Virus record (IMG/VR): IMGVR_UViG_3300045994_000459
Coordinates: 1 to 47,195 of that record
Strand: one strand, 5' to 3'
From: a virus
Length of the DNA stretch: 47,195 bases
This document shows, one piece after another, positions 3 through 44,531 of this stretch (its first letter is position 1; each line of letters starts with the position of its first letter). The notes beneath the pieces were generated by a model. That model was not told the DNA's origin, ran no database searches, and saw only the letters and a program-made list of their open reading frames with translations. A program made the position numbers and the translations under genes.

Positions 3-233
3 ACTGATGTGTCTCCTGATACAGATATTTCTATTACACTCACAGAAGAAATACCCTCTTCTGGTATTGACTTGAACTCTTTACAAATAAAAGTTAAAGG
101 GTTTGACTTAACTGATCAGGTTATTATAAAAGGGGATATTCATTCTAGCACCATTAAGATAACCCCAGGAACCAAATATATGTCAGCAATAAATGAGGAT
201 TTCCACAATGGATCAGAATATTCGCCTGATTGA
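3..233 (+). CDS. C-terminal end of an Ig-like structural protein (5' truncated)
   Basis: The reading frame is open to the left edge of the window, so this is the 3' end of a longer gene; the GTG at position 9 is not needed as a start. The 70 or so visible residues look like the end of a beta-sandwich domain: alternating hydrophobic residues with the stretch GIDLNSLQIKVKGFDLTDQV. The pattern 'NSLxxKVxGxxxTDQVxI' recurs in the 686-residue protein at 3163-5223 (KVNGVEVTDQVQITF), so the two proteins share an Ig-like module. It overlaps the next gene by 26 bases. By context it belongs to the virion or adhesin module. The exact role is unknown. Confidence 0.6.
   Translation, partial: TDVSPDTDISITLTEEIPSSGIDLNSLQIKVKGFDLTDQVIIKGDIHSSTIKITPGTKYMSAINEDFHNGSEYSPD
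195..199 (+). promoter_or_regulatory. Ribosome binding site that sets the start of the next gene at 208
   Basis: GAGGA lies 8 bases before the ATG at 208. The earlier in-frame ATG at 193 has no such motif and would itself span this site. The start at 208 is therefore preferred. Confidence 0.65.
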
Positions 234-1572
234 ACCTAACATGGCTATGTTCCTAAAGGACCACGAGCTGAAGTTTTACAATCTGATATATGATAGGCAC
301 GATAAAGGCACTAAGAATGGCTATGAAAATTTTCTATTGTCTAGGTATCAAGACGGAACTATGCCCCTCACGGCGTATCCCACTCTTATTGAACTTCAGA
401 ATAAAGTAAGTAGTCTAGATTATGACGGGGAATGGTTTTGGTCGGTACAATCAATCAATGATACACCATCGTTTCCTGGTATGGTAATACGAAAATGGCA
501 AGTGGATCCTGAACAATACGGGTTAAGGCAGTTTCAATTCAAGGCATTTCCTGGGGCTAATTCAGGTAATGCTATTGCAATAGAGTACTATAATTTTCCC
601 TTGTTGGAAGATATGGGAACAGACAGGAATTATATAGTTATTGATGGAAGCTATCGCTGGGCAATAAGGCGTTTACTTATAGGCCAAAGCATTAAAATTG
701 GACCTAATATACATGATGAAACATTTTGGGGCGTGATCGTATCTATTACTCCTGATCCTAATCCTATACCTGTTCCTGATCCTGACACCAATCCTCCTTC
801 ATACCAGATCACACTTAGACCCTATGATTATCCTCCTAGTAGTCACGGAGATGGGGAGAATGTTTTCATAGAGGCCCGTATATTCGTAGTAGATACTGGG
901 GGGAATCTTTTGGAACTAGATCCTACTGACCTCTCAGTGGTAAGTAGTCATTATAGAAATGTTTATAAGAGTTCCTCAACATTAGCATTTAGTATTATCA
1001 AAAATATTCCAAATATAGAATTGGGGAATAGAACACCAGCTCTGTTCTTTATGTCTGGATCTACAACTTTTTGTATGGCACTGCGAGATTTATCCTCAAT
1101 TAGTGCATCTCAAATTGCACCACTAAACTATTATGATCCTGGGAATACTTTCATACCAGTATATGAATTGCGGATTAGAAATGATGATCCGGAAGACATT
1201 AACAACCACCCACAGTTTTACTTTCTGCAGCAAGACTACAGGACTGCAGGGGCATCTGTAATAACTTGGCCTTCATACAATTATATTACTGAAAATATGG
1301 CTGCCCAAGGGGCTTTTATGGTAGTCAATGCAGATCCCGAATTTATACTTCCTAGTGGTATAGTACGGTGTACTTGCCAGATACTGGATAATTATAGATT
1401 TCCTATGAGCAATGTACCGGTGAACTGGTCGGTTACACCCTCTGGTGCTGGTAGGTTTACGACTGTAACTGGAACAACTACAAATGTTAGTGGTTACGCC
1501 TATGCTACTTTTAGCGGAGCAGATACTATACCGTTCCCTACATATATATCAGTAACGACGACAGCTTTCTAA
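208..1572 (+). CDS. Virion/adhesin protein with C-terminal Ig-like domain
   Basis: About 454 residues from the ATG at 208. No signal peptide or membrane segment is visible. The N-terminal part is related to that of the next gene: both have DGxxFWS followed by an IRKW or IRRW motif and then AIAIEYY or AFAIESY. A middle segment (residues about 150-220) holds a module with IKIGPN, then RPYDYPP and a GD, also seen in the 686-residue protein. It contains a proline/aspartate-rich loop (PDPNPIPVPDPD). The last 80 residues resemble a Big-1 type bacterial Ig-like domain: CQILDNYRFPMSNVPVNWSV, a glycine-rich turn, then a YAYATFSG strand. Such domains act as stalks or carbohydrate contacts on phage fibres. 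It forms an operon with its neighbours. The specific receptor is unknown. Confidence 0.7.
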   Translation: MDQNIRLIEPNMAMFLKDHELKFYNLIYDRHDKGTKNGYENFLLSRYQDGTMPLTAYPTLIELQNKVSSLDYDGEWFWSVQSINDTPSFPGMVIRKWQVDPEQYGLRQFQFKAFPGANSGNAIAIEYYNFPLLEDMGTDRNYIVIDGSYRWAIRRLLIGQSIKIGPNIHDETFWGVIVSITPDPNPIPVPDPDTNPPSYQITLRPYDYPPSSHGDGENVFIEARIFVVDTGGNLLELDPTDLSVVSSHYRNVYKSSSTLAFSIIKNIPNIELGNRTPALFFMSGSTTFCMALRDLSSISASQIAPLNYYDPGNTFIPVYELRIRNDDPEDINNHPQFYFLQQDYRTAGASVITWPSYNYITENMAAQGAFMVVNADPEFILPSGIVRCTCQILDNYRFPMSNVPVNWSVTPSGAGRFTTVTGTTTNVSGYAYATFSGADTIPFPTYISVTTTAF

Positions 1573-1582
1573 GGAGAAAAAT

Positions 1583-3163
1583 ATGGCATATGAAAATGTA
1601 AGAATATCGACACCTGGGTTTTGTTGCGATGGGCAGTATTTTTATTCTATGATGCCCTCACCCACTAATATGTTAGTGCAAAAAACTAGTTATGGGGACC
1701 CAGTAACCAATTTTCCCCTTAGTCACGAAATGAATTTATCTGCTAAGGGAGGATCTTTCCTATCCTTGCAGTTTGATGGGATAAACTTTTGGTCTCTAGA
1801 ACAAGGAGATGCACCTAATCAGAATAGCCAAAGAATAATTAGAAGGTGGCTCATACAAAATTTTATGTGTGTACTCCAGGACTCATGGATACTGCGTGCT
1901 CGCACAGCGGAAAATATCAATGGGGGAGCTTTTGCGATAGAAAGTTACACGGATACGATAACAGAGGCCTGTGGGTATGGTACATCTAGGCCTGATAGTA
2001 TAAAACTTAGACATCCTAGAGCCGCATTCTTTCAAGTATCTGATAGATTTTATTTAATTTCTGCTACACAAAATATTACACAAGAGGTTCAAGTGGCTGC
2101 CGCCGGAGATCCAGATTATTATACTGTTAGGACTAATGGAGCGATTGGATCAATTGGATCAACTCAAAATACGTTTTATCCTGGAGACAGGATCGTACTG
2201 CGGAGAGATTTATATTTCTTCAATAATGAATCTCCTAGCCAAGGTTCGGCCGGGGCGGCCTTATATTGGTATGCTATTCCGTTTCAGAGTCCTGGTGGTA
2301 ATCCTACAGACCTACTAGAACCTACTTTCAAGAGTTGCCACGAGAGTGGTATTTATGAACAAACCCAAGCTGCAGTTTTTGTTACTGTAGAAGATTTGGC
2401 TGGTATAAACCAGGGGAAGTACGCTGGTCTTATAGCCTACGTTAGGGGGCAACAATTAATATTTAAGCGTCCTAATTTGGCTAGCTCCTTACCATATCCA
2501 GGGCCATCTATTACTGGACAGATGCCTACAGGATTTGACTATACCGGTAGAGTAAATCTAGAGTTTAAGGAAAACGTGGCCTCTATGATAATGGATACTG
2601 CTATTAAGAATGATAGAATTACTTTACACACTATTTATGATATAGCTCAATCCATAAATACTACAACTTGCACTACCTCGAATATATACCGGCTTCAGAC
2701 AGATTATACCTATGGTACGAGTATTGAGGCAGCTTTTACTATAGGCCCATATAATTATGTTGTTTCAGTTATGAAACCTATGGTAACATCAATTGCTTTG
2801 ACCGCAGAACCAGCTTTGGTAGTTGCCAATGGGGTAGACGCAGCTCTTATATGGGCTACTGTAAGAGACCAGTACGGAGCACCTATAAATGGCAAGCGTC
2901 TTGTCTTTGGTGTATCGGCTACAGATGCACAGGCAGTAGGGTATTTTAAATGTCCTGATGATGATCCCATTCCTGTATCACGTTGTGTGCAGGGAAGTTT
3001 TACCTGGCTTGATGCTGCACCCCACAAACAAGCTGAGGTAATTACTGGTACCCAATCCTCTTATTTAGATGGCCCTCCATCTATGGGAGGACAAGCTGTA
3101 ATAAAATGGAGAGCAGGAACTAAAGCAGGATTAGTAACAATTGTAGCCATAGTACAACCATAA
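1583..3163 (+). CDS. Virion/adhesin protein with C-terminal Big-1 domain
   Basis: 526 residues. The ATG at 1583 follows AAGGAG (1571-1576) with 6 bases between. The N-terminal half is a divergent paralogue of the preceding protein: FDGINFWSL corresponds to YDGEWFWSV, and GGAFAIESY to GNAIAIEYY. The C-terminal 130 residues are a clear Big-1 (invasin/intimin-type) Ig-like domain: ANGVDAALIWATVRDQYGAP, then a KRLVFGVS strand, and a closing VTIVAIVQ strand. Between these is a cysteine-containing insert (CPDDDPIPVSRC) that could form a disulphide or metal loop. Its stop codon overlaps the next ATG by one base (TAATG), which suggests translational coupling. A surface-exposed virion component is the best guess; exact placement in the particle is not visible. 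Confidence 0.72.
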   Translation: MAYENVRISTPGFCCDGQYFYSMMPSPTNMLVQKTSYGDPVTNFPLSHEMNLSAKGGSFLSLQFDGINFWSLEQGDAPNQNSQRIIRRWLIQNFMCVLQDSWILRARTAENINGGAFAIESYTDTITEACGYGTSRPDSIKLRHPRAAFFQVSDRFYLISATQNITQEVQVAAAGDPDYYTVRTNGAIGSIGSTQNTFYPGDRIVLRRDLYFFNNESPSQGSAGAALYWYAIPFQSPGGNPTDLLEPTFKSCHESGIYEQTQAAVFVTVEDLAGINQGKYAGLIAYVRGQQLIFKRPNLASSLPYPGPSITGQMPTGFDYTGRVNLEFKENVASMIMDTAIKNDRITLHTIYDIAQSINTTTCTTSNIYRLQTDYTYGTSIEAAFTIGPYNYVVSVMKPMVTSIALTAEPALVVANGVDAALIWATVRDQYGAPINGKRLVFGVSATDAQAVGYFKCPDDDPIPVSRCVQGSFTWLDAAPHKQAEVITGTQSSYLDGPPSMGGQAVIKWRAGTKAGLVTIVAIVQP

Positions 3164-6448: not shown

Positions 6449-9400
6449 ATGCCTCATACTGTAAGTGGGACCATAACTTCAACAGGCACGCTATTACCTG
6501 ATGGTACTGCTGTATCTGGGAGTCACTCTGTAAATTATACTTACTCATATATTTTACCCAATCCTTCCGGAGTTTATAGTGTAGATGCTTGTAGTAGTGG
6601 TATTGCTAATCTTCCTCTCTATGTGCAGGCTATAGGAGACTCAATACCTCTGAGTCCTACGGATATAAAAGATGGTCTTATTTGCTATCATTCTCTGCAA
6701 GAAACTGGAATCAGAATAGAAGATAACTCAGGGAATGGCTATACAGCATATGCTATAGGTACTATACCTGTTCGGGGTAGAACTGGATATGGTCGAAGCC
6801 TTGGCCAGTATCCTTACGGTCATATTAATGTGCCCACTCTTCCCACACAAAGTGGGAATAATTATATGTGCACCTTCTGGTTTAAACCCACCACTTTATT
6901 AGTCTCAGGTAGTAATACTTCCTTTACCATTATGGGTACCCACGATTTCTATGGAGATCACTTTATAAATCCTTGGGACTATAAAATTTCATCTCCATAT
7001 CAAGGGTGGTACTTATTAAACCCCTGTCAGATATGTGTAGCCTCAAAAGGTGTACAGGCAGGAACTACTATTACTAATGGGCCACGTACCGTCGTGTCTA
7101 GAAGTTATGGGCCTCTTATCAACAATAGAGTTATAGAAAGTTTTACTATATATTCTTCTTCTTCAGCTCTTTTATCACTTAAGATTATGAAGAACACCAG
7201 TGGTAATGTATTTGATATAATAGATCTGGAGTCTTTTACCCACAACGGAGGAGGATCACAGACATTTGTCCTGACTTCCCCGTATTATGTACCCGATGAT
7301 GGAGCTACTTACTATCCTGGTTTCTACCTACCACTCAATATTGGTTCGAATAGTAGTAGTGCATCTTTTAATGACAGATCTGCACCTAATAATTTAGTTG
7401 GTAATGGCATAACTTTAGGTACTACCATTAACACGATTAAATTACAAGTAAAGTATGTTGATCTTGATGACAGTGTTCTTAGGATCCAAGGCAATTCTAA
7501 TACGAATTGGTTTAGTAATACAAACACATCCGCCACCTTATACTTCCCTATAGATAAATCTTGGGATTGGGATATAGAAACTGAATTCTTTATACCAACT
7601 CCTGCTATTACAGATCAGGCTGCTGGTTTTATATTCTTTAATAGTACCTCCCTTAATAATTATTGTTCTTTTGTTGTAGTAGCAAGAGGTCAGTATTCTT
7701 TTGATATAAAAGCACAAACTGGAAACTATTCCTATACATGTGCTTCTGATATATGGTATGGTAATAGTTCATTCAAGTTTGGTATGAAGAAGGTTGGTCA
7801 GACTGTCTATTTTAGGTATCTCGATCCTATTTCTTATTCTTGGATATGGCCTATATACTACATGGATTGTTCCCTATGGAGTAGTAGCATGCGCATAGGA
7901 CTACAAAGCTATAACCCTACCGGTGCTGCTCCCGTAGTTACCTATAATTATATCGAATTTGTTAGAGGGGTCAAGCCCGCCGGAGTCGGTGATCCAGAAG
8001 TACCAGGCCGTATATGGATCTCTTATAATGAAACTAGTGTTTCTGGGACTGTGGGAGTGAGAACTGATAGTAGAATTTGGTTACACACAAATAGGGACGG
8101 CTTCGCGGCGGGAACTTCTACACACACTTGGGACCCATCTAAATGGTATCTATTGCAGTTTGGAACAAAACCTAATGCTGCTCCTGGAGAGTATTGTTGG
8201 TGGGTAAATGGAAGCCAGGAAAGGGGATTGACTGTAGGCTCTGGGACGGGTGCTGTGTCCTTTATTACTTCTGATGGTATGAATTATTTTGATCCCTACC
8301 CTCAACCTGCCAGTGGTTCTTTTGTGTTGGATGAGGTAGCGCACTGGAGTAGATGGCTCACAGGAGAAGAAAGCCTAAAGATGGTTAATAAAGTATCCCA
8401 AGTAGCATGGTTTTATTTACAGGGTTATTATAAATCTGATGCTAATGTGGATATGATTTCATCTACTACGACTTCTGGAGATTCTAGTCTAAGTAATATT
8501 TCAGGTGGTTTACGTAGTATTACTTATGCACAGTATCAACAAGGTACTCCTTCCGGGGTATCAGTAAGATTTCAGAAAATAAGTTATCGAATTCAAATAG
8601 GTTTAAATGTGGTCTCTCGAAAACTTGACCAGGCTACGTTTAATATTATCAGGCGCTCTAGTGGGTGGGTAGGGGCCAATACATGTTATTGTGAAGAGCC
8701 TATACCGCCATGGCCCCTTGCATCTGGAACCCTGTCGGCTAATACCGCAAATGGCGGTAATGTGCCCGCTAATCTAAAAGACGGTAATGCTGCTTCATAT
8801 TACGAAAATACGGGCCCCCCTGCTAATGCTGCTTATTACCTAAGAGTTTCTTATCCTTTAAATTGGCCCACTACCAGAACCGGCTGGAAAGCAATTAGAT
8901 TTAGAGCTTATAGTAGTGTGAACTTTTGGCTAACTGATTTTCCTAAAACTATGAGAATATGTGGTTCCAACCTGATGAGTCCCACTACCACTACAGATTC
9001 AGACTGGGAATATCTATTTGATATCACTTCCCCGGCACCTCCATCTAATAATTCATGGGCTGATTGGGCAACCTTTCCTTGGACTGTACGCTATCCTCAC
9101 TACCGCATACAATTTTTAACCAATTATGGAAACTCAAGTACCAACTGGATAACTATATCAGAAATGGATATAAATACAGTAGGTCTGGAACCTAATGCTC
9201 TATTCTTTGACATACGTGGGGATGTACCTATTTATAATCAAGGCCCATCTACCACCAGTAATAATGTGCAAAACTTCTACATTCTAAAGCGATGGACAGA
9301 GCCTTTGGTAATTATTACACCGGACTCTACGGCAGCTAATTTTAACCAACTGGTCTATCATCTGACGGGTCCTGAGTATATAGATGTATTACCTGCCAGG

Positions 9401-12400
9401 AATACCCGGATGGTGGATCCGGCATTTGCGGCATACCATCCACCACGAGGGCATTTTACCATTAAAGATTATGGTTTTCCAATTAAGTCCTCAAAGACTC
9501 GTGCGTGGCTGTACCAGTATACAGAGGGGGCACCGTATTCGGCTCCCCCAGAGATAACTACATGGTCAGGCAATATTACTGTGATTAGTGGAGCATTTCC
9601 CATGACACTTTGTACATTACCGGCTAATTGTGAAATAAAGAATATTAGCATAGCGGTGATATCGGGTTCTAGAGGAGGTTATGGGGATGCACAAGATAAT
9701 GCTATTAATTTAGGCGTGGACTGGTCGGGGAGTATTGAGACATCAATTAATCGTTTAGACACTTCCCTTTATAATGGGCGTTTTATCTCTTATGTAGGAA
9801 GTTATTCCACGAGCCTTACTCCTAGGCCAATAATATGGAAAATGTGTCGAGAAATTACTGCAACTCAGTTTGATTTGTATAATATACTGTCAACTACTAA
9901 GGCAGCTAATCATTTACAATGGGACCAACTTCCTAACCCTTATTTGATATCAACGAGTGGTGTCTGGAGGATTGGTATTTGTGCTGCTAGTATATCTCAA
10001 GGTGGTCCTGGAAGTCAAGCTTGGGCCTCCGGGGATAAAGGGACAGGGCTAGGTATAACTGGATGGTCTACTTACGGTGGTGGCGGTGCCTTCGGAGTAC
10101 GTTACTGCCCCCGTTATAGCATAGGTGCTGATTCTTCTCAAACTGATTTTATAAAACCATTTGAAACTGCTGGTTCTGGGTCTATAAGTTTAACTCACGG
10201 ACATATGTATTCTACTGTTTCAGACTTAGACAGAGTTTTAAAACTCTACAGCGATGCAGTCGTTCCAGATACGTCCGGACAGATTAGTGTGGTTATACAA
10301 TATCAACTCCGCTCTAGCCCGTATCTGAAAGAGGATAATTTCTGTTTTGATCAGTTCAATTTTAAAACTCAGCCCACAATAACTGGTTCTAAATATGTAA
10401 CCACATCAGGAAAGGGTTGGACCGTAGCAAATCCGCAAAATACTACTTTGGCCATGATAAATCAAGGAGCAAGTGTTGTTGTAGATCTTGATTATTCTAA
10501 TATTGTTGGGTCGGGATATCATCAATATATAACACAGGCTTCCTTCGCTGGAGCGCTCAATGTATTAGAAAAGAGTGCTTATCACTATGATCCGGTTGCG
10601 GCAGTAAATGGAACCAAAGTTTTTGAGCTGGCAACAGTTAGCGGGGTATGGCAAGCTCCTGGCGGAGGTTCTAGTCTGGTACCTACTCCTAGTGGTAAAT
10701 ACACTGCACCTTTTTCCTATATAACTATACCTTCCGGTCTTTATAGTTGGACGGTAGAAACTAAATTTGCTGCAGAGCGATTAGGAGATTTGCGGGGGCA
10801 ATATGTTGGATTGATGTTAACTTACGAGAATGATCCATCCAAATTTTATCAGTTGGTGACTTCAGCAGATGGAATCATAAATTATTGCCACCAAAGCCCA
10901 TGGGATCGTGTTTATGTTCCCCGCAAGGGTGCAGTTACCGATGAGATCTGGATGCGGGTTACTAAATCAGGTTCCGTTTTTACATTCAACTGGTCAGAGG
11001 ACTATGAAACCTGGAATCATATAGACCCGTTTATTCTCACCTCTGGTACACACCCACCAATGTCTGATTATAATACACCCGCACCTTATAGGTGTTGGGC
11101 ATCTTCGGAATATACTAATATTGCTGCTGGTGGAGGGTATGCGTGGCAGGCTTTTGATGGTACATGTAAATACCCCTATAATCCTACTTCCACTGACCGC
11201 TGGTGCTCTAGTGTAAGTGCTTACGATTATCAACTTCCACAATGGTTAGCCTTTGACTTTGCTATACCCGTGTTTATATATTATTACCAACTACAAAATC
11301 CGTCACATGTTTGGGGAACCCAGTCTGACGGCTTTGGGGCAACCCCCGCAAGTTTCGAGTTACACGGGTCAAATACTGCTGCTGATAACGACTGGACAGT
11401 TTTGGATAAACGGCAGGATACCGCAGAATATGGGGAATGCGGATGGAGTCTTCCTCTTCAGATACGAACTCCTGGGGCTTATAGGTATTATAGGCTCTAT
11501 GTTACCAATGTCCATCCTTCTCAACCATCATATTGTGTTGCACTAGGACAATTATCATTGATTGGAACCGCTTTACCTTTGCCCGCCTATAAAACTGATT
11601 CTAATTATTTAATTGGACCAGTAGTCATTTCTGAAAGGGATCAAATCTATACTTCGACATCCAATGCACTGGTTCCAATTATGACTTCATCTGGTAGTCC
11701 TAGTCCTTTTGTGGTTACTTCTAGTATGCCTGATTCTGCTAATGCCTGGAAGGTTTTTGGAACCGATTTTGTGTATTATGATTCCAGTCCGTCTATACCA
11801 TGGACTCCTCCGTGGATTCAGATTGATATGGGCAGTTTTGTTGTGGTCCAGGGGGTACGTTTTATAGGACACCTTAAGGATACCTTTTATCGTGCTATTC
11901 CTTACGATTTTAGAATTCTAGGATCTACTGATAATTCTCAATGGACAACAGTGTATACGTCTAAAGGTGCACGAGGGTATAATGCTTCAGCGGGTAATGC
12001 GTATGTTCCCTCTGCTGATATGAATTTATTTCTTGAGTTTCCTAACAATACACCTTACCGTTATTACCGACTGTATATAGATACCCCGGGTGCATTTTGG
12101 AATACCCCTAGAACAATACCAAACGCTCTATGGTTTAGTAACTTACAATTCAAGGGCGTTACCACTAACAGGCAAGAAGTAACTTCGGCTTACACCCATG
12201 CGTCTTTTGATTATGTTAAAGTTACTACAACGTCAGGATTAGAGTCTATTACTATTGGAGATGATTGGGAATTAATGTTGGACGGAAAAGCTGCAGTTAA
12301 TTCTGGTGCTAATACCTGCGTGACCGCACTGTCGGTTATAGATCCATCAACATATTATTTTTCTTATTACCCCAAAACATCTTTTGATCCGGGAGCATCA

Positions 12401-14923
12401 GTATTTGTAAGAGTTAAAGCTGAAGAATCTCCTTCTTTTCGTCTAACCTACGATAAGTCCAAATGTTTTTTTTATGCCTCAGTAAGTGGCAGCCAAGCTA
12501 ATTTACCATTTACTAGTCATCTTGGTGAGGTGACTACTAGCGGAGGGCCTGCACTATCTTATCTTTGGGATGAGTCTCCATACACAATAAGTATATACGC
12601 GATGACTACCAGTGGTTATGCACCCCCAAATTACATAACAACTACTACTGGTATAGTTTATGAGGGACAATATGCTATAAGTAAAACTGCGAGTGGGTGT
12701 TATTTAGAAACACAAAAGCTTGATGCATCTTTATTTAACGGGGATTGGACTTTCCATGTCTGGTTAAATGCACAGGCCCAAGCATACACCAGTCCCCCTA
12801 AACTAACATATTCTCAAAATAATTATTTGGATAATAAAAACTTTGCTAAGGCTTTTGATGGTAATCCTTCAACTATTTGTTGTCTTACTTGGGGACAAGA
12901 ACCTACTACCACTATTATTACTCCGAATAGCGCTAGTGCTTCCTATGGTTCTTTGATAGCAGATTCTCCATGGCAATTCGATGCTGTCCGTTTCCTTCCT
13001 ACCCAAGAGGCGAGTTGGTGGAATGGGCATTATCCGAGGAATGTCTGGCTTTATTATTCAGATGATGACACTACTTACACACGAGCACAGGCTTGGGTTA
13101 TTCCTTCTGCTCCTTCCAGTATGTCACAATGGGGGGATTGGTTGATAGTTAACCCACCGATAGGAGCTCACCGTTTCTATAGATTATATATAGGACAACC
13201 TCAGGGGTGGGTAGGTTACGGGAATCAGGCAGAATTTAGTGAATGTCAGGTAAGAAGTGCAGGGACCGCAATCATTCCTCCCTCAACTTTATTTTCAATT
13301 AAGAATTCGGATACTACTGAAGCTTTGCGTTGTGATTTTGGGATGGGTGGAGGTATGGGTGTATATCAAAACAATATGCTGGTGGGTAGTTCGGATGTAA
13401 TAAATTATACCGGTAACAACTGGGCTCATTTTGCTGTAGTCAAAAAAGGCCCTTGGGTTAATACTTTTTTCAACGGGATTAAACTGGGGGGTAACATAAC
13501 ACTTTCTGGAACTCTTTGCACTACAGGCAGTGGTTATATAGATTTTTTTAATAATTATACGGGCTATGTTGATATGATTGTCATGGAAAAGGGAGCTAGA
13601 TGGATCTCTGATTTTTATACGGCTGAGCAATTTGATGAGATATTTACTTTCAAACCTGCCAGTCCTATAGATCTTGATATTAATTTTGGTATAGTTCCTG
13701 ATACGAATGCTCCAATAGTTATTCCTATAACTCCTCTGCCTATGGCTTCTGGTGTGTGTCCTGCTTCGGGCATTGTGTTCGAAATCTTAGATGATTTTTC
13801 AGGTGTCAAGTGGGAGCAGACTTACATCAACATAGGAGATTTCACTGTTTGGTCGGGCGGGAATAATATGACCGAGTGGTGCGATGACCGTGGTACTCTT
13901 ACCTATGAAGATTTAGGAAAGGCGCAGGGAGAGTGGGCGGATATACAATTAACTGAATCTGGTGTAGTATATACCGAGGGTATAAATAGACAACTATATC
14001 CTCCCGGTACAATCTATGACGATAGTGGTGCGTGGGGCCGAAGATTTACTTATTACGCCCCTAATGATACTCAGATATTATATTTTGGTAAGACTGTTGC
14101 TGTGGTCATTAGCGGAACCGATAGTGTAGGGTATGGTTCTCAGTTTGATGCATTGCAGCCAAACAGGTTTGCGAATAGTTATAGTTTTGAATTCATTCCT
14201 AATGACAACATAGAATTTGGAAATGTCTTTCTTAACAAGGGCGAAAGTAAGAGAATTGATGAGTTGAATGCCCGAGGAGAACACTTTTGGGTGGATCTCC
14301 TAGATAGTGATTATCCTGAAACTGATATAGCAGAATCAGAATGTAGTCTAACTTGGTCAGATGGTTTTAGTGAATTTGTGTGCTCGGGTACATGGTTTAC
14401 TACATGGACCGGCAATGAATGGACTGGGTCGTCAGGCATAGTAATGCATAGAATGCATTGGGATCCCAATAATGATTGGAACTGGAAAGGCAATCGGGCG
14501 ATACAACTAACTGTGGAAGCACATAATAATAATCCTACGTGTAGTGTATATAATGTTAATGATTATATAATTTATTATGGATGGCAAACCAGTTGGTTCC
14601 ATCAGGCTATAAAGGACTTATATCCTGCATGGGATTTTAATCATAAATTACCTATATTTGTAAGTATAAAAACAGATCTTTTTGCTCCTGGATTACTGAA
14701 TAAGTCCTATATGTTCTGGACGTCGCCCGGATACAAGGCAGATTTCTATGTTACACTTACTCCTAAACCTATACCAAAGGATGATTTGAAGATAGGAATT
14801 CTAGCCTATAGTCAGTTTTTGCAGTATAGTGAGGATGTTGAGATAGAGGTCTCGTGTAAAGATTTGGATGGGAACGAAATGGTGTATGTATGGAAATTCA
14901 GGACACAAGATAAACCCAATTAA
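6449..14923 (+). CDS. Giant multi-lectin adhesin (LamG, ConA-like and discoidin domains)
   Basis: 2824 residues. The ATG at 6449 is two bases after the previous stop, with only a weak upstream GAG, so translation is probably coupled. Domains read from the sequence: a LamG-like half (about 73-191; GLICYHSL, MCTFWFKP, GWYLL), an inserted beta region and DUF1349-like ConA domain (about 198-510, closing with MRIGLQSY and YNYIEFVRG), then the other LamG half (about 514-640; KWYLLQFG, WWVNGS, DEVAHWSRWLTGEE). A first discoidin-like domain lies near 759-913. A second ConA-like domain (about 1427-1928) appears split by two discoidin domains (about 1541-1710 and 1750-1905). A second LamG (about 2071-2391) is split by a fourth discoidin (about 2115-2270). 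An Ig-like segment (APIVIPITPLP, then SGIVFEILDDFSG) lies near the C-terminus. All these folds bind sugars in known proteins. No enzyme motif is seen. Probably a host-glycan-binding fibre or surface decoration. Confidence 0.75.
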   Translation: MPHTVSGTITSTGTLLPDGTAVSGSHSVNYTYSYILPNPSGVYSVDACSSGIANLPLYVQAIGDSIPLSPTDIKDGLICYHSLQETGIRIEDNSGNGYTAYAIGTIPVRGRTGYGRSLGQYPYGHINVPTLPTQSGNNYMCTFWFKPTTLLVSGSNTSFTIMGTHDFYGDHFINPWDYKISSPYQGWYLLNPCQICVASKGVQAGTTITNGPRTVVSRSYGPLINNRVIESFTIYSSSSALLSLKIMKNTSGNVFDIIDLESFTHNGGGSQTFVLTSPYYVPDDGATYYPGFYLPLNIGSNSSSASFNDRSAPNNLVGNGITLGTTINTIKLQVKYVDLDDSVLRIQGNSNTNWFSNTNTSATLYFPIDKSWDWDIETEFFIPTPAITDQAAGFIFFNSTSLNNYCSFVVVARGQYSFDIKAQTGNYSYTCASDIWYGNSSFKFGMKKVGQTVYFRYLDPISYSWIWPIYYMDCSLWSSSMRIGLQSYNPTGAAPVVTYNYIEFVRGVKPAGVGDPEVPGRIWISYNETSVSGTVGVRTDSRIWLHTNRDGFAAGTSTHTWDPSKWYLLQFGTKPNAAPGEYCWWVNGSQERGLTVGSGTGAVSFITSDGMNYFDPYPQPASGSFVLDEVAHWSRWLTGEESLKMVNKVSQVAWFYLQGYYKSDANVDMISSTTTSGDSSLSNISGGLRSITYAQYQQGTPSGVSVRFQKISYRIQIGLNVVSRKLDQATFNIIRRSSGWVGANTCYCEEPIPPWPLASGTLSANTANGGNVPANLKDGNAASYYENTGPPANAAYYLRVSYPLNWPTTRTGWKAIRFRAYSSVNFWLTDFPKTMRICGSNLMSPTTTTDSDWEYLFDITSPAPPSNNSWADWATFPWTVRYPHYRIQFLTNYGNSSTNWITISEMDINTVGLEPNALFFDIRGDVPIYNQGPSTTSNNVQNFYILKRWTEPLVIITPDSTAANFNQLVYHLTGPEYIDVLPARNTRMVDPAFAAYHPPRGHFTIKDYGFPIKSSKTRAWLYQYTEGAPYSAPPEITTWSGNITVISGAFPMTLCTLPANCEIKNISIAVISGSRGGYGDAQDNAINLGVDWSGSIETSINRLDTSLYNGRFISYVGSYSTSLTPRPIIWKMCREITATQFDLYNILSTTKAANHLQWDQLPNPYLISTSGVWRIGICAASISQGGPGSQAWASGDKGTGLGITGWSTYGGGGAFGVRYCPRYSIGADSSQTDFIKPFETAGSGSISLTHGHMYSTVSDLDRVLKLYSDAVVPDTSGQISVVIQYQLRSSPYLKEDNFCFDQFNFKTQPTITGSKYVTTSGKGWTVANPQNTTLAMINQGASVVVDLDYSNIVGSGYHQYITQASFAGALNVLEKSAYHYDPVAAVNGTKVFELATVSGVWQAPGGGSSLVPTPSGKYTAPFSYITIPSGLYSWTVETKFAAERLGDLRGQYVGLMLTYENDPSKFYQLVTSADGIINYCHQSPWDRVYVPRKGAVTDEIWMRVTKSGSVFTFNWSEDYETWNHIDPFILTSGTHPPMSDYNTPAPYRCWASSEYTNIAAGGGYAWQAFDGTCKYPYNPTSTDRWCSSVSAYDYQLPQWLAFDFAIPVFIYYYQLQNPSHVWGTQSDGFGATPASFELHGSNTAADNDWTVLDKRQDTAEYGECGWSLPLQIRTPGAYRYYRLYVTNVHPSQPSYCVALGQLSLIGTALPLPAYKTDSNYLIGPVVISERDQIYTSTSNALVPIMTSSGSPSPFVVTSSMPDSANAWKVFGTDFVYYDSSPSIPWTPPWIQIDMGSFVVVQGVRFIGHLKDTFYRAIPYDFRILGSTDNSQWTTVYTSKGARGYNASAGNAYVPSADMNLFLEFPNNTPYRYYRLYIDTPGAFWNTPRTIPNALWFSNLQFKGVTTNRQEVTSAYTHASFDYVKVTTTSGLESITIGDDWELMLDGKAAVNSGANTCVTALSVIDPSTYYFSYYPKTSFDPGASVFVRVKAEESPSFRLTYDKSKCFFYASVSGSQANLPFTSHLGEVTTSGGPALSYLWDESPYTISIYAMTTSGYAPPNYITTTTGIVYEGQYAISKTASGCYLETQKLDASLFNGDWTFHVWLNAQAQAYTSPPKLTYSQNNYLDNKNFAKAFDGNPSTICCLTWGQEPTTTIITPNSASASYGSLIADSPWQFDAVRFLPTQEASWWNGHYPRNVWLYYSDDDTTYTRAQAWVIPSAPSSMSQWGDWLIVNPPIGAHRFYRLYIGQPQGWVGYGNQAEFSECQVRSAGTAIIPPSTLFSIKNSDTTEALRCDFGMGGGMGVYQNNMLVGSSDVINYTGNNWAHFAVVKKGPWVNTFFNGIKLGGNITLSGTLCTTGSGYIDFFNNYTGYVDMIVMEKGARWISDFYTAEQFDEIFTFKPASPIDLDINFGIVPDTNAPIVIPITPLPMASGVCPASGIVFEILDDFSGVKWEQTYINIGDFTVWSGGNNMTEWCDDRGTLTYEDLGKAQGEWADIQLTESGVVYTEGINRQLYPPGTIYDDSGAWGRRFTYYAPNDTQILYFGKTVAVVISGTDSVGYGSQFDALQPNRFANSYSFEFIPNDNIEFGNVFLNKGESKRIDELNARGEHFWVDLLDSDYPETDIAESECSLTWSDGFSEFVCSGTWFTTWTGNEWTGSSGIVMHRMHWDPNNDWNWKGNRAIQLTVEAHNNNPTCSVYNVNDYIIYYGWQTSWFHQAIKDLYPAWDFNHKLPIFVSIKTDLFAPGLLNKSYMFWTSPGYKADFYVTLTPKPIPKDDLKIGILAYSQFLQYSEDVEIEVSCKDLDGNEMVYVWKFRTQDKPN

Positions 14924-26500: not shown

Positions 26501-27368
26501 TGGGGCATCCAGAGATTATGCAGAGCAGATGGCCAATGCAGCCCAGCAAGGCATTTATAATAGCATCCAAAATAGCATGCGTGGGCGGGTCAATGATCAA
26601 AGAAACTGGGTTTTCTTAGACCAAATAAACATGAAGATAGATGAAGTGAATTGGGAAGATATAAAAAATAGAGAAGGTTACCAAGAAGAGATATTTGAAG
26701 AGGCGAGAAAATTAGAGGCAAAAGATTTTTCTAATAGTAGATTTAAATTTACTGCTATAATTCCCTATCACGACTGGAATGAAATTATGGATATTACAGG
26801 AGCCAATCTTAAAAAAGACCAAAAATTTGAGTCTCGGGGAGGTGATGAAGCTAGCCCTATAACAGTTTCGGAGTTAAAAGAAATAAAGGATGAAGATTGT
26901 CATATAGAATGGTATGGTTGGGAATGGAAAGAGGTATCTAGTTTTTCTTTTAGGAATGAATATGATGACAGGTATCCTTTAAAGGCGAGCACAACAGACA
27001 CTAAATGGAAAACACTTTTAGTAAGAAAGTGCGGGAGTAAATGGGCACATAAAGATACCGAGGTTGACGGAGGTAAAATATGGACCGGAAAAGAAGAAGA
27101 GCTAGTGGGGAAGAGAGAGCATCTAAAAAAGAACCACCCCTTGATAGTTCAAGTCGATTGTGCGGACATGTCATCAAAGAAAAGCCAACAGACAATAGAT
27201 CCAACTAAAGCGGATGCGTCATACACAGATACTACTGACGACTCTAAATATTCCTGTATTAGATTAGCCCAAAAATGGGAACCAGGGGGAGAAGCTATTT
27301 GGCCGAAGACAGTGAGCAATGATGGGGGAAAGACTTTTAACTGGCCTGATCCTTGGTGGAGATTTTAA
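17568..27368 (+). CDS. Giant unrecognised protein with coiled coils and cysteine clusters
   Basis: 3266 residues, starting at the ATG after GGGAGG (17556-17561). There is no recognisable enzyme motif: I looked for Walker A, DxDGD-type polymerase and HExxH motifs and saw none. The N-terminal 430 residues hold two cysteine groups (CKYC then CNC near 120-147; CGNPDC to C near 389-412). A possible carboxypeptidase-regulatory-like beta unit (DERGKFIFEDVPLS) lies near 705. Two related 23-residue units occur near 798 and 842. Coiled-coil-like helices are at about 875-985, 1720-1780 and 1820-1945, the last Ala/Glu/Lys-rich. A zinc-ribbon-like CxxC pair (CSLC, then CPLC) lies near 1618-1647. The rest is rich in Trp, Tyr, Asp and Lys. 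Its position between structural genes suggests a virion component. A tape measure is possible by size, but the composition is unlike a typical one. Confidence 0.62.
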   Translation: MPSNLIYRIKHASESTLSMYNPENIPASVYSQLSETGYLIESDKNILPGTCAYLTKVSVAGSWKYYCGIKRWTVRYDLAASDTRIPNSTQTGEFEGRVSGALRVEDPLIDPSIPRDYFICKYCNAGNAEPTKQGIAGQELVEFPMCNCYSPRGGMAISMFDGAVQGNIATGFAQPEGKEDFPNVYNIWDTFSRSTQSGPSFAGPIPKYVGQQLSKKFPARPGRLGMVYLMLNARATVVPCCWWKGMRPIIFTPSMFRAIDLAVAQAAVLGDKIPGAFRKVSRKPGMSDLVDYIFKSGDYFIAGMTIPYTDGTQDVLSETDAYQLNAMFGRNYDPSLPECGNNHRVIYTLTDSLITPSKRIDPYDKNDTTCSPVWHTAREGSPFSPKNCGNPDCSVRYTWGHTCNGGGAFSLVDGRACPSYENPLMGTFESKRYAKLENMYAGDSVTAAAILELMWLSKGGLPWTVEEWKDTWLVPRIWTTVPFNPAWKQTNKIVNDNGDIITSETWHAEYEVYARKAEINPEDGKISLAPMRKLPGGSAVSFNRKPDGTKKDGNQVPDIPTLVKNVDLKTTGNLKIIWPISDLSLLKLDVTDTKTYAESLKKLKDKAYLKMVWSRDGLKTQVVGQVTKGQYLSGVFCINTAFVQNDTWNRDKITLEQGLLDLKGGDPAIQKLLRQLWADIYRSYSPGGQPVLKNMALLQTSVDERGKFIFEDVPLSTLDNPNHIIVFGFGSASKVDADIIKIKPTFRHGYTYQSNTHLVTSWKSVWNGRPSLFVSQAALNKISTPVSAGKIELGTAIKIGDWYFSSVTGDYMPTEDAISLQISYLKSDIQTLQASLSGPVTKIDGKYYAAVTGDPLSEADAAKLLEAASGPRSFIVSQILQKNKAIDIAKGELSKTKAKLQLEIAQVNINDPEYIVKALKEIDNNIAEIDTDIKTMEANRETYSKDGNITMVSLLDASIIQRQKDKESIQKIRDNLASRQPKEPEPSPPDQSKSDIKAEVYSWVDLSKYTGKGDSDNKDVGVAAKDESSERLYIPYLSPDKADFKDVDKYTKLLPPGSQPEDITLTIPEQSGTTEWRNFIVNQGGKQAEDTVPWYSFPGKATKKIIVYSTRESDSGSTPTAQAGQVKGAKINDNICKWYRTSSCTSMIIIAMNPEICHQSSEFMIFSMYGKIKQKYNDADGKQMEKEKIIKFIPMNYSQVKRPFPGYTKDKAVVNIGTESKNEVQYQKIQITTDIEILERKESARHPWIFFVVPVAEEVDVKEWRYYNDMWYPPLKGASPITIPDHDELEIYMEYAYIADIYDEHEADAKYMWEKEGNYYKKETRIMFSSPKSGIMRTLFRYEPAEDKVDGYDKVPMGTCSMATVWPHAKYACRDYEIMYIWRDTYPGEELTTGNMKNRTMTNSAASKVACKTKGKDQMFTMVDQGDHDLGTEFQPSLQYNTRTSTNVQGGTPRFQMTRAEWSSTFTQKADAAIVNRDPTFGFPKSSNTLNMPPDNPGALYYPYTRGEPSSVYVPRHNGYPWEFMDKWRNKPKEAENLGAFRMQASDWCIRGTDVTRVRTWSRHWIYDEKRETQFIGRSKTRGPVFQLEYREYYDVPTKTVFLKPYVANTASAPDQCYCSLCNRYFARDVCFDSKSPQPCPLCNKYSDYNSDPPTAPSITRKSGWKADWMYLVDRQESETPDIPVETLSEGEKDVFVIKDPSRQDYDEWKTKVETLFQQWSGDQTNATLETNLKKEQARGRLRGWIANFTGGLSFLNEEESRKLDSAQQQVQSIEDKSEIDILTGVDKYGLKKRKDLGAFQISDQYVPGSIDPYYGSDPNSSEEMKYKELEDAARKAESAAAAAKGDAARYESKQKILDANPQSTFSEGGSVYSADGRATYTSRGAPTNKISDKVDEAKKIQSEKEDEAAALRSKVNEFNSRSARGQARDALATKTQEARTKLEKTCNRYYEYQQTAFGYNYPWSPFDSPPLFGNMGREMFSIELCTIGSVISWLPRADGKSKETPSFPAIPSWWTSATPSGQPREMVTLLAPPIECTRALIPMASEAINPFYYYIMTEDPFREEGPTEGGGEELKSIPTKDVRIVTQYDPVLCGQPYTRSDAGRFTLSIKADVPLCRITVVGDSASYYDSQDNILLEVTGFAEEKKLLTVSKAKPDPYLSGSDVKGFAVADKDIISVGNRYPGFYGSYNYGKTFVGFKKPTGADSAVHWAWPEDVRDKITRAKKILKWYPELMDPMPVIPADTEKLAIESILKEYYSRPIKTKQDSVDDTGLWSISSIMCGPYSKKKDNMDDGREVSCGPNLKEDGSNSKNEKEKKFLKTYFAIVAESERIDNDGKMRPPLMWVRKLSDANLGTIIDYKVPSEADSEVPHAVYHSGSIVPVELEKGDEDDKDEYGKPAYRGVFSTGEIIFKDAGLGLKNPTGGANLLTSSNMNAAGYYPGFIIGNVNYRTLGKIFEEREFQGTEYHSRIDKKISSGGQNEHSLSGNFSLPRFNSDALFLEITLDSWFSESNLSDYLHNATDSMSLEVSIAAAAVPGGNPLSTSNVTFNTSLPVIPDTGEKDMKVKYFLDFGTSFDLSITFKWWVKTDPGNFYQGLWKGSETKVEMKDQYDRDGKLSSQKLETVPNPDNFCYLDNLISSIKIGVLSPGKCAELVEVEEVGFYVSTGSKCELEVSGKEYDFFTEQDQDWYKPNWEDFDKKLERTEGWWKDSGRYTAEDTTGAGVDESWFVKAEEQMYTSMREEEEKTLKDPSGQSKKSLLGKVPKAEIFPRAGVEVPELPLSRLKMIAWNAINQGETPDARVYPYNWDPAEKEKSWMWGGVWTTRMAGPEWITTSGADKYPTRDYIWWPALPYKAGKVILKGRYFITGDQYKDESKAINKKKYRGVESKDDDKYNEYAYKYEVRGFDALLKMIQTVEQGGAEDRRSAAMGREFGTSYAQKQNTLKSLNNSGWEKTPLSARGTQGSLGGAYSRTLAGGDVGASRDYAEQMANAAQQGIYNSIQNSMRGRVNDQRNWVFLDQINMKIDEVNWEDIKNREGYQEEIFEEARKLEAKDFSNSRFKFTAIIPYHDWNEIMDITGANLKKDQKFESRGGDEASPITVSELKEIKDEDCHIEWYGWEWKEVSSFSFRNEYDDRYPLKASTTDTKWKTLLVRKCGSKWAHKDTEVDGGKIWTGKEEELVGKREHLKKNHPLIVQVDCADMSSKKSQQTIDPTKADASYTDTTDDSKYSCIRLAQKWEPGGEAIWPKTVSNDGGKTFNWPDPWWRF
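19959..20159 (+). repeat. Two degenerate 23-residue repeats inside the 3266-residue protein
   Basis: Units at about 19959-20027 (KIGDWYFSSVTGDYMPTEDA) and 20091-20159 (KIDGKYYAAVTGDPLSEADA) share KIxxxYxxxVTGDxxxxxDAxxL. They lie 44 residues apart, separated by a short helix. The repeat is at protein level; the DNA copies have diverged. Confidence 0.6.
27355..27361 (+). promoter_or_regulatory. Ribosome binding site that sets the start at 27368
   Basis: GGTGGAG ends 6 bases before the ATG at 27368, which shares its A with the previous TAA. An upstream in-frame TTG at 27353 lies before this motif and is unlikely to be used. Confidence 0.6.
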
Positions 27369-30300
27369 TGACCGATGTATCTGCAGAATACAATCTTCTC
27401 AATGAATGTAAATTTATACGTAACAAAGAAAGATGTGCGCATGATTCTAACTATGGCTTTGAGGCTATTTTTAGTAATGGAGATAACGGATTTACTGATA
27501 ATGTTGGTCTAAATTGGCACATGGCTGATGGTTTGTTCTTGTGGGCTACCTCTACTGATGGGTCTTGTTATATTTCCTTATCAGATCCTCTTACTGCCAC
27601 CTTTGAGGCTGATTTCTTTTCCAATTTCGAATTGGATATGTTAGTTCGTTATAATCCTGGTGTGGTAGGAAAAACACTTCCTGATACTATTACTGGTAAA
27701 ATAGCCTGGAGAATGGATACAGACCCTATATGGTGGGATGATGCATGTGTTACCTTTGACGTCATTCCAGATGGGGCATGGCAGCACTATAAGTTCTCAC
27801 TACTAGGAAGCCCCAAGTGGGTTGGAAACTGTCAGGATATTCGCCTCTACCCCTTTATCGACGGGGCGCCCTATATAGAGGTTATTATACAAAGGATTGC
27901 CTTCACTTCAGATGCACATTATAAATGTAAATTTCCACCTTGTTCCTGGAACTCAAATTACACTCACACTTGCCCGGCTACTGGAACCTGCGCCAAGGCT
28001 TATAGTTTAGTCAGACGGCCATTAGTACAGGTAGATGGTAATAATTGTCGTATAGGAGTATCTCTTGACAATTATCCTCCACAATATATTGATTTGGATC
28101 TGAGCCATTGCACCGATTGTTATTCTGTTGCACAAGACATAACACTCAAACTTAATACGCTATCTTTTGGTGGCTATAAGTTTGCTGAGTGTGCTTATAA
28201 TAGTGTAGACGAAAATTTTACTATATATACCGGAACAAAGGGTACGTCGGGGAGTGTCCAAATATATCATGGTGGTGATAAGGATGTAACAGAACAACTA
28301 GGATTCTTCAGGTCTAGTGCGGTCTCAGCATATAAAACGGAAAACGGTACTGAACCTGCGGATGGTTACTCTCCCGCTTATCAGCGGCTTTCTGCTACAA
28401 TGCTTTATAGGCTTCCATCATCAGAGTCAACAGTAATTACGTTCGATCCTAAACAACCCACTATAGAAATAGGACGATCAGATCTTATGAATCTTCCCTC
28501 AGAACAACTTATAGAAGAGGGGAGTATAAGTGGTATATTGTTCGTTGATATCTTTGGTGCAGCCAATGATGAAGGGAATATTAAAACCATTCAGTTCAAA
28601 GGAAAGATAACTAATCATAGCAAAGTATATCTGCTCCGCCCTACCGGTGATTTTACACTTGCTGTGGTCTATAGTCGGTCTATGACTATCCTTGACTTAA
28701 GGAGAGGGCAGAAGACTTTGTATGAGTTTTCTGTGGATTGGCACCTTAAGCCGGGAGACATGTTAGGGTTATATATGTGCCAGCCTGCTATGCACACTGA
28801 ATCAAGTTCCGCACCTAACTTACAAATGTTGTATAAGAATTCTTGGATAGAGATAAGAAATTATAATTTAGCAGTAGGAGATAGTGTTTCGTATACACCA
28901 GAAAGTGTTAAGTTTTATGGCTATCAAGGCTTACCAGTCTACGGATTTTCCACTGATAAGTGCCCTGGATTCGGGATAGAGGCGGAGTTACGTGGAGAAT
29001 ATGGTGTTCAACAACTAGCTGTTGTGGGTGAAGATAGTATAGATAATTTTGAGTTTGACCTTATGAAATTGGGCACTAGCCAAGTTATGGTATCAACAGA
29101 CAAAACGGTGGGCCCTATGCAGGATGTTGGTGATTCGGATTTAATGATTGAATTTCAAGATACGGATGATATTAGTAAGTTCTGGATAGACTTTTGGTTT
29201 CCAGGCTATATTCATAATATCTATAGAATAATTACAACCTTTGAAGAGTCCAATAACATTAGAGAGTTTTGTTGGGAAGCATATATAGAGCCCGTTAATC
29301 GCTCCGGCTTGAATTGGTCAGGAGTCTACCACTTTTCGACTGACGCTCCCTACTTAGGCAGTGCTGTGGGGTGGATGCGGCTTTTAGATCCTTTGGTTGT
29401 CTATATTGATGATGACACAGATATGACTGGAGATTTATATTTAGGATTTAATTATGTTACTGGTAATCCATATGATCTATACCCAGGTGTTAGTGATCAG
29501 ACAAGATATGATCGAATGACAGCAAGCTATAAGGTTCTTTGGAATAAACTAGACCAAACTTTTTATCCGTTTGATAGCCGGGGCCTTAGACTGTATGTGT
29601 CTAATTGGGCTGATCCTAAAATTACTTCAATAAAGGTCTTTTCTATTTTTTCTACCAGAGAGACCATTCTGAGATCGCTGTATGCAGTAGGCTCAAGTGG
29701 TCCAGAAATCTTTGACACTGAGTCATATAACATTGTAGATTTAACAGGACAACTACTATCTTCTAGGCGGATTAGCCGAGCCAAGACAACAGATTATTCT
29801 TATGGTATGAACTTTGAGTATCAGAATGAGGATTATACTACTGGAGTAGCTACTATAGGAACTACTTTAAGTAAACTATCTTTGGATATAAGACTTTTTC
29901 CTACTAAGATCAAACAGATAAAATTAATTCCCCAACACTTAGGTGTGGAAGTAAGAATGGAAGGAAACGAACCCATTACTGATATTTGTAATATGTCATG
30001 GGGCGCTCCTTCTGACGGGAGTGAATTTACTTATGGCCCAACAGTAGAATATGAGGTTCACAATGATACAGGGCATAGGGCTAATTTGTTATTGGGAGTT
30101 GCTGATCCTTTAGCGATTGATCAGACATGTATATTTGCAAGTAAATTAGATTCCCAGGAGTCTATAGATGACCCGTACAGGGGTTGTACTGCTCAGATCA
30201 TTAGCTCTCCAGATACCCCCGTAACCAATCATAGATGTATTAATTACCACGCTAGAGTATATTCTATAATGGATGTTACTCCTGTTGCCTGGTATAGCTC

Positions 30301-42885: not shown

Positions 42886-43728
42886 ATGAGTGAGTCATAT
42901 TATGATATTTTAGGAGTACCTAGTAACGCGAATGAAGACGAGATCAAGAAAGCTTATAGAAAATTAGCACTAGAGACTCACCCCGATCACAATGAGGGAG
43001 ATAACGAGGCTGAGGATAGATTTAAACAAATCTCTGAGGCCTATGATATCCTCGGTGATCCTCAAAAACGCATGAATTATGATAATCCGCCGCAGTCGAA
43101 TCCGTTTGGGTTTGACTTCGGCCCTTTTGGGTTCCCCGGGGGACCTGTTCCAGGAGGATTTGGTTTTCATTTCTCTTCCGATAGACCTCCTGCTCCTCCT
43201 ATCCCTGTACCTGGAACACAGCAAGGCCGGAATCAAGAAATCGAGATAGCGGTTAATCCCTTTGATCTCCTTCTGCAGCATCAGATTAATATTACATATC
43301 CCAGGTTGGTGAAATGCAAGGAATGCGGTGGGCGCGGCGCCGATCTGAAACATTGTCCTGTATGTGAAGGACATGGTATAAGACGAGAAGTAAAGGAAGC
43401 TGGAAGACAGCGTAGGATTATTGATAGTCCTTGTGGTAGTTGTGGTCATACGGGATTAATAAAGGAAAACGAATGTACAGCCTGTGGAGGGACAGGACTA
43501 ACTGGCGAGTCCCATACTGCTACTGTTAAATTATCACCTCACCATGATAATGGTAGAGTAATAGTTCCCAATGAAGGTTTCTTTGGGCCCTACGGGGGCC
43601 CTGCGGGGAATTTAATTCTACACCTTAGGATAATCTACCCAACTCTAGATCAGATAACTGAACCAGCACTAGAAAAATTGAAGGAGGCTTACGAGTTAAT
43701 TTATAATAGAACAACGGAGAATACCTAA
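42886..43728 (+). CDS. dnaJ: DnaJ-type co-chaperone, short C-terminus
   Basis: 280 residues, against about 375 in bacterial DnaJ. The J-domain (about 4-66) has [20 protein letters not shown], an intact HPD (about 32-34) that triggers Hsp70 ATPase, and [15 protein letters not shown] Gly/Phe-rich linker follows ([12 protein letters not shown]). Then comes the cysteine-rich domain with four CxxCxGxG-like units ([32 protein letters not shown], about 144-205), and an end of beta domain I ([15 protein letters not shown]). The last beta domain and dimerisation part are missing. It probably recruits the host DnaK to a phage replication or assembly complex, as host DnaJ does in lambda replication; this is inference. 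Its place in the replication operon favours that role. Confidence 0.92.
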
Positions 43729-44262: not shown

Positions 44263-44531
44263 TAACTAAGGATATGGATGCTAAGATCACACCTTATACG
44301 AAACCACGAGAAAGTGAGGAAGAAGGAAGACAAATCTATATAGAATTAATTGGTGGTCATAAGGTTTTTGGTGAACTTATAGAGCACAAACCTAACATAT
44401 TTATAGTCCGAGACTTTAAGGATCATAATATAATAAAAGAATTGCATAGAGCGACTATTGTAAGATTTATGATAGTATTAAACGGAGGGAAAAAGGATGA
44501 CAAATCAGGATGGAGAAAAGGCGGAAGTTAA
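44259..44531 (+). CDS. Small protein with Hfq/Sm-like sequence pattern
   Basis: 90 residues from an ATGA overlap. Residues about 25-73 match the plan of an Sm fold. IYIELIGGHKVFGELIE resembles the Hfq Sm1 stretch (IYLVNGIKLQGQIE) in its strand, Gly turn and Gly-Glu spacing. NIFIVRD resembles the next strand, and KELHRATIVRFMI is placed like the Sm2 strand (YKHAISTIVP). The termini are charged and flexible, the C-terminus basic with Gly. Sm/Hfq proteins bind RNA as rings. The call rests on pattern alone; another small beta-barrel such as an SH3-like domain would look similar. It lies between the resolvase and glycosyltransferase genes, with no visible partner. Confidence 0.5.
   Translation: MITKDMDAKITPYTKPRESEEEGRQIYIELIGGHKVFGELIEHKPNIFIVRDFKDHNIIKELHRATIVRFMIVLNGGKKDDKSGWRKGGS

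Follow-up and report, generated by a model that had tools for sequence, protein, structure and literature searches.

Domain shuffling is usually seen as the addition of beads to a string. Can whole domains also be swapped inside other domains? A giant multi-domain open reading frame (ORF) of 2824 amino acids (aa) in the virus record IMGVR_UViG_3300045994_000459 raises this question, as one of its LamG domains, here called LamG-2, appears to be split by a discoidin (F5/8 type C) domain. We analysed the whole 47,195-base virus contig, hereafter the window, together with homologues from related large phages (coordinates in Table 1). We consider it probable, at roughly 0.7, that the ORF encodes a virion-surface protein in which lectin-type beta-sandwich domains act as sockets and the domains inserted into their loops differ among related large phages; domains would here be swapped inside other domains.

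LamG-2 and its discoidin insert

The 2824-aa protein is too diverged for direct search to find its relatives. Searches with the nested region or the whole protein retrieved no close relative among viral contigs, those with the nested region none among phage records, and two scans of bacterial and archaeal genomes no relative at all. Relatives with the same gene order were reached through the neighbouring genes and the C-terminal region of the protein: G001/L005 (259,732 bases), L009 (66,130 bases), L011 (545,322 bases) and L016 (211,229 bases). The full-length homologues comprise 2466 aa in L009, 2539 aa in L011 and 1892 aa in L016; G001 was left unscored for inserts, as its sequence begins inside the homologous gene (L005:1-319, perhaps an assembly break).

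LamG-2 extends over roughly aa 2041-2401 (window 12569-13651) and has as its orthologue an uninterrupted LamG that occupies the equivalent position within a shared gene order. Between the anchors DWTFHVWLNA and TLFSIKNS lie 171 aa in the window, compared with 6 in L009, 5 in L011 and 5 in L016. The 60-aa flanks of this site, E1, align with those of L009 (z = 12.5 left and 14.4 right, against shuffles) and L011 (12.5 and 5.4), and the C-terminal part of LamG-2 matches a LamG profile of L009 and L011 in hhalign with a probability of 98% (E 9.8e-14). A second loop of the same domain, E2, is filled in L011, where a discoidin of 176 aa stands between HAYRVFS and YYGTGSINF, against 12-19 aa elsewhere; it scores 31.7 bits for PF00754, with its best stretch at aa 1819-1925 of the L011 protein. 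At the level of sequence, the boundaries, the empty alleles and the alternative position in L011 indicate true nesting, with the discoidin sitting in a loop of LamG-2.

Profile tests gave a similar picture. We scored 2820 deletions of the window region against a LamG profile built solely from L009 and L011, and the top deletion was aa 2111-2275 (12779-13273), at 86.0 bits compared with 71.3 for the intact sequence and a median of 58.4. The relevant gain is about 15 bits, because the intact score already reflects the conserved C-terminal half. Pfam found LamG neither in the intact LamG-2 region nor in either half alone, and joining the flanks by an in-script splice gave a Laminin_G_3 match across the join. 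Among the homologous LamG-2 copies, the uninterrupted domain of L009 scored 39 bits for Laminin_G_3, that of L011 lay at the cut-off and that of L016 reached 26.8 bits. Since a genome search placed Laminin_G_3 at this position in L009 and L011 and found none in the window, profile searches miss interrupted LamG domains.

The E1 insert by itself matches PF00754 (F5_F8_type_C) over profile positions 8-126 of 127 (E 0.0012), and a profile built from the discoidin copies aligns with discoidin-type domains of known structure. A partial AlphaFold model of the insert, built from its alignment with nine other discoidins of these proteins, had F5/8 C, CBM32 and factor VIII C2 domains as top PDB matches in Foldseek (probability ~1, E 5e-3); this fold match is supportive rather than independent, because the alignment held other discoidins.

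These results bear out the split proposed in the sequence-only reading, through the empty sites, the excision scan and the Pfam splice. The motifs that it quoted all lie where it had put them: GCYLETQKL (aa 2083-2091, 12695-12721) and HVWLNAQ (aa 2103-2109) in the left half, AKAFDGNPST (aa 2133-2142) and RFYRLYIG (aa 2242-2249) in the insert, and TLFSIKN (aa 2280-2286), NNWAHFAV (aa 2323-2330) and FFNGIKLGG (aa 2340-2348) in the right half. It had located the LamG correctly at 12656-13625, the host domain being slightly wider, and its discoidin at about aa 2115-2270 comes close to the bounds of 2109-2279 given by the empty homologues and of 2111-2275 given by the best excision. The comparison of homologues for presence or absence of the insert, which it had suggested, found L009, L011 and L016 without it, so that relatives do lack the insert.

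Table 1. Features of the 2824-aa ORF and its loop sites in the window
Feature	Residues (aa)	Window position	Strand	Remarks
Giant multi-domain ORF	1-2824	6449-14923	+	Holds the LamG-2/discoidin nesting; full-length homologues have the same neighbours on both sides
LamG-1	75-646	6671-8386	+	Cassette X and a DUF1349/GH43_C2-like domain lie within it
Cassette X, site A1, within LamG-1	191-341	7019-7471	+	Shared by window and L011; missing from L009 and L016
DUF1349/GH43_C2-like ConA-type domain, within LamG-1	342-505	7472-7963	+	Hosts site A2
Site A2		7679-7765	+	Empty in window; discoidin in L009, L011 and L016
Discoidin-like segment, site B	749-914	8693-9190	+	Window's protein only; identity from alignment with the other copies
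Cassette C	1032-1292	9542-10324	+	Window's protein only
DUF1349-like domain 2	1378-1928	10580-12232	+	Two discoidins in two adjacent loops
Discoidin D2 with linkers	1526-1719	11024-11605	+	Absent in L016
Host-domain segment YLIGPVVISERD		11606-11641	+	Between D2 and D3; continuous with its domain in L016
Discoidin D3 with linkers	1732-1916	11642-12196	+	Absent in L016; best PF00754/PF22633 match of the window protein
LamG-2, N-terminal part (...DWTFHVWLNA)	2041-2108	12569-12772	+	Aligns with the uninterrupted LamG of L009 and L011; alone no Pfam match
Site E2, second LamG-2 loop		12602-12658	+	Empty in window (19 aa); discoidin in L011 (176 aa)
Discoidin / F5-8 type C insert, site E1	2109-2279	12773-13285	+	Bounds defined by empty homologues; best excision 12779-13273
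LamG-2, C-terminal part (TLFSIKN...NNWAHFAVVKK...FFNGIKLGG...QFDEIFTF)	2280-2401	13286-13651	+	Aligned by hhalign to the L009/L011 LamG profile
Conserved C-terminal region	2390-2824	13616-14920	+	52-60% identity in relatives; served to find them

Eight loop sites across the homologues

E1 and E2 belong to a wider pattern. The gaps between conserved anchors, in the order window/L011/L009/L016, measure 151/154/16/13 aa at A1, 29/198/374/195 at A2, 166/10/6/6 at B, 261/0/0/0 at C, 194/174/170/13 at D2, 185/192/192/7 at D3, 19/176/12/14 at E2 and 171/5/6/5 at E1. In these sequences the alternation of filled and empty alleles is evident at all eight sites, each of which is empty in at least one homologue. 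Discoidins occupy differing loops and host domains of the protein (A2, B, D2, D3, E1 and E2), and the remaining inserts are of other kinds (X, C and an inner insert in L009). The compared neighbouring genes, including those for 3266- and 2155-aa proteins at 47-49% identity, contain no indels of 40 aa or more.

The sequence-only reading had counted LamG-2 as the third nested case in the protein. Other cases do lie at aa 75-646 and 1378-1928, and the host in the second of these is DUF1349/GH43_C2-like, not LamG. In the first, LamG-1, the spliced L009 copy scored 24.3 bits for Laminin_G_3 (profile 4-150), compared with 19.5 for its C-terminal half alone (54-150); splicing did not raise the score in L011 and L016, and the window copy itself gave no Pfam match. 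The DUF1349-like domain lies inside LamG-1 in 4/4 proteins, and this level of nesting rests on the profile test, because no empty allele exists. For the next level, leaving out the discoidin at A2 raised the GH43_C2 score of its L011 host from 14.2 to 23.0 bits. The deepest arrangement is that of L009:3413-4396 (aa 300-627), where a discoidin within the DUF1349-like domain within LamG contains in turn another segment, of about 166 aa. This discoidin was recognised in Pfam, as a galactose-binding-type domain (DUF5000, 21.4 bits), only with the inner 166-aa segment left out. From these splice tests, the order in L009 appears to be LamG-1, DUF1349-like domain, discoidin and further segment, from outermost to innermost.

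In the second case, DUF1349-like domain 2, the DUF1349 score rose from 13.5 bits for the whole ORF to 18.1 after splicing, neither value reaching the cut-off. D2 and D3 are not tandem discoidins, a possibility ruled out by the host-domain segment YLIGPVVISERD that separates them. Two further sites are filled in the window alone. At B, Pfam gave no match for the segment by itself and the right-hand flank is weakly conserved. Pfam did not confirm segment C either; the 259,732-base relative encodes a segment related to this cassette at another place, within a 947-aa protein (tblastn E 1.5e-17).

The protein thus resembles a plug-board with interchangeable recognition modules. Going further, we see even odds that this giant surface protein of a very-large-phage clade evolves mainly by gain and loss of lectin-type domains in loops, with at least eight sites, the use of alternative loops, nesting up to four levels deep (in L009) and clean losses that restore a short loop.

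Direction and mechanism of domain turnover

A tree from three neighbouring proteins, unrooted and with five taxa and no outgroup, has the topology ((window,L011),(G001,(L009,L016))). On this tree, parsimony tentatively suggests that E1 was gained in the lineage of the window and E2 in that of L011, and that D2 and D3 were lost in L016 and the A2 insert in the window.

We propose that beta-sandwich lectin-type domains serve as sockets whose loops would be occupied by whole domains, mostly discoidin/CBM32-like. At E1 the discoidin would enter the LamG-2 loop past the strand DWTFHVWL, and the LamG chain would pick up again at TLFSIKN; LamG-2 would presumably keep its fold and have the discoidin protruding at its edge. 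Both domains may fold, and their ligands may be glycans on the host surface or in its vicinity. Gain and loss could proceed through in-frame recombination with other phage genes, which is our default explanation for the inserts rather than a demonstrated route, and selection on adsorption would drive the turnover.

The E1 discoidin shares 13-21% identity with the ten other copies in the comparison, values that rule out a recent internal duplication as its source; it may come from elsewhere or from an old duplication. Its base composition is not unusual, with a third-position G+C of 0.30 in both insert and gene. The suggestion that discoidins spread as loop-inserted cassettes is supported in so far as they occur in different loops and host domains. 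The spread of one cassette is not supported, given the low identities and the lack of a mobility signature, and X, C and the inner L009 insert are other domains.

Alternative explanations

Several observations count against our interpretation. The spliced LamG-2 of the window scores 16.5 bits for Laminin_G_3 (PF13385), under the cut-off of 27.6, and the E1 insert 19.4 bits for PF00754, under the cut-off of 28.2. The AlphaFold model of the whole nested region was discarded (predicted local distance difference test (pLDDT) 36), and that of the insert is partial (pLDDT 62, predicted template modelling score 0.63, with the first 39 residues below 50). At E1 the right 60-aa flank of L016 is weak alone (z 1.4), the left being clear (12.5). 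Finally, no tail protein was recognised among the neighbours, bar one downstream gene with a DUF3383 match below threshold. The weak family scores of the window LamG copy and the lack of a reliable structure for the nested region would suit side-by-side domains, in which the discoidin would stand between two short, unrelated beta segments that only look like a LamG. Yet three relatives join the two LamG halves by 5-6 residues, one of them reaching 39 bits for Laminin_G_3, and the maximum of the excision scan coincides exactly with the insert. Side-by-side domains are therefore contradicted at the sequence level and seem very improbable. We give still less credence to the idea that the insert is a selfish element lying in frame, of intein type or concealing a homing nuclease, and only looks like a domain. 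Phage genes are known to carry in-frame homing insertions of the ShiLan type, which resemble the window insert in being in frame and in their mobile-element-like distribution among phages (PMC11855218), and IscB-type and TnpB-type genes are present in the genomes of the relatives. However, the ShiLan-type insertions hide an HNH nuclease in another frame (PMC11855218); none was seen in the window insert, which matches a structural domain family over its length, has only this discoidin match in Pfam, is overlapped on either strand by no other ORF of at least 150 aa and showed no splicing motif or nuclease ORF. Nor do its ends carry flanking repeats, the longest shared word of 6 bases equalling the chance expectation.

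The remaining alternatives accept the nesting and differ in its history or use. The E1 insert could be ancestral, with independent deletions in L009/L016 and in L011. Losses do seem to happen in this gene, since D2 and D3 are absent in L016 and kept in its sister L009, and A2 is empty in the window alone; against this, two losses would be needed in place of one gain in the window lineage, an argument from parsimony on the small unrooted tree, and we regard an ancestral insert as unlikely, if the least so of the alternatives. Slightly more doubtful is neutral clutter, by which loop inserts would be tolerated as mere spacers with no binding function. The copies have diverged strongly (10-37% identity) and binding is itself presumed, which would be in keeping with spacers. 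However, the E1 insert retains the AFDGNPST motif, which we take to be typical of the discoidin family, and analogous inserts in the Dit proteins of lactococcal phages are functional (PMC10688798).

Function and relation to known systems

The product of the ORF is probably a virion-surface protein, most likely of a tail or adhesion device. When the whole ORF was submitted to Pfam, F5/8 type C domains alone were recognised, with the best at aa 1785-1885. Glycan binding by LamG-2 and the discoidin inserts is inferred, and by analogy it is plausible that the loop inserts vary it. Domains of the same two families, LamG and discoidin, have been reported on virions of jumbo phages, likewise large phages, and are thought to serve adhesion (PMC7824862); what is described there is their occurrence rather than nesting or an exchange of inserts.

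The closest parallel is the evolved Dit of Lactococcus, Lactobacillus and Streptococcus siphophages, where a carbohydrate-binding domain of ~170-250 aa is likewise inserted in frame, here into a tail protein, the Streptococcus insert sits within the galectin domain and close relatives have insert-free classical forms (PMC10688798, PMC9437275). Recombinant lactococcal phages show that such an insert permits infection of exopolysaccharide-bearing hosts (PMC10688798). The window protein has the same arrangement of a carbohydrate-binding-type domain in a lectin-fold domain, with insert-free relatives, and may by analogy work like an evolved Dit without being one: a Dit has a belt and a galectin core, and Pfam and PHROGs gave no match to a Dit-like family in the ORF. 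Its host protein is unrelated, the hosts being LamG and DUF1349-like domains and the inserts mostly discoidins; in contrast to Dit, it has eight sites per protein, alternative loops of one host domain across phages, and inserts within inserts. Nested insertion being already known, it is this site density, the alternative loops and the nesting depth that set the window protein apart as a notable variant.

A concanavalin A-like lectin protein of Rhizobium phage RHph_Y5A (QIG73346.1) combines a LamG (477-627) with a relative of cassette X (682-771) side by side, whereas in the window X lies inside LamG. At least the X module thus exists outside nested settings.

For a given loop, related phages offer natural alleles with and without an insert, which amount to ready paired constructs. 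Such pairs let one ask whether an insert in a loop can confer binding while its host domain stays intact, and bear on how phage surface proteins are re-tooled and on where lectin folds tolerate inserts.

Neighbouring genes

Downstream of the ORF the window encodes a UvsX-like recombinase, a DnaB-like helicase, a primase and a RuvC-like resolvase, all of large-phage type. The 2155-aa protein with the sub-threshold DUF3383 match (27353-33820) aligns with its counterpart in the 259,732-base relative at 49% identity and nearly without gaps. Two adjoining proteins at 193-3163 have sub-threshold Big_1 and Invasin domain 3 matches close to their C-termini. A DnaJ-like protein (42886-43728) combines a J domain with a CXXCXGXG region and resembles proteins from Lak phages and other large phages, and two adjoining genes at 44497-47066 match one glycosyltransferase family (phrog_2170).

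Among the relatives, a TnpB-type gene (OrfB_IS605, with a Cas12f1-like TNB domain) lies at L007:4724-5845 in the 259,732-base relative, and IscB-type genes (RRXRR and HNH) occur in two relatives, at L006:153-1433 and L016:5225-6448. The latter sits between the homologues of the first two genes of the window, which has none there.

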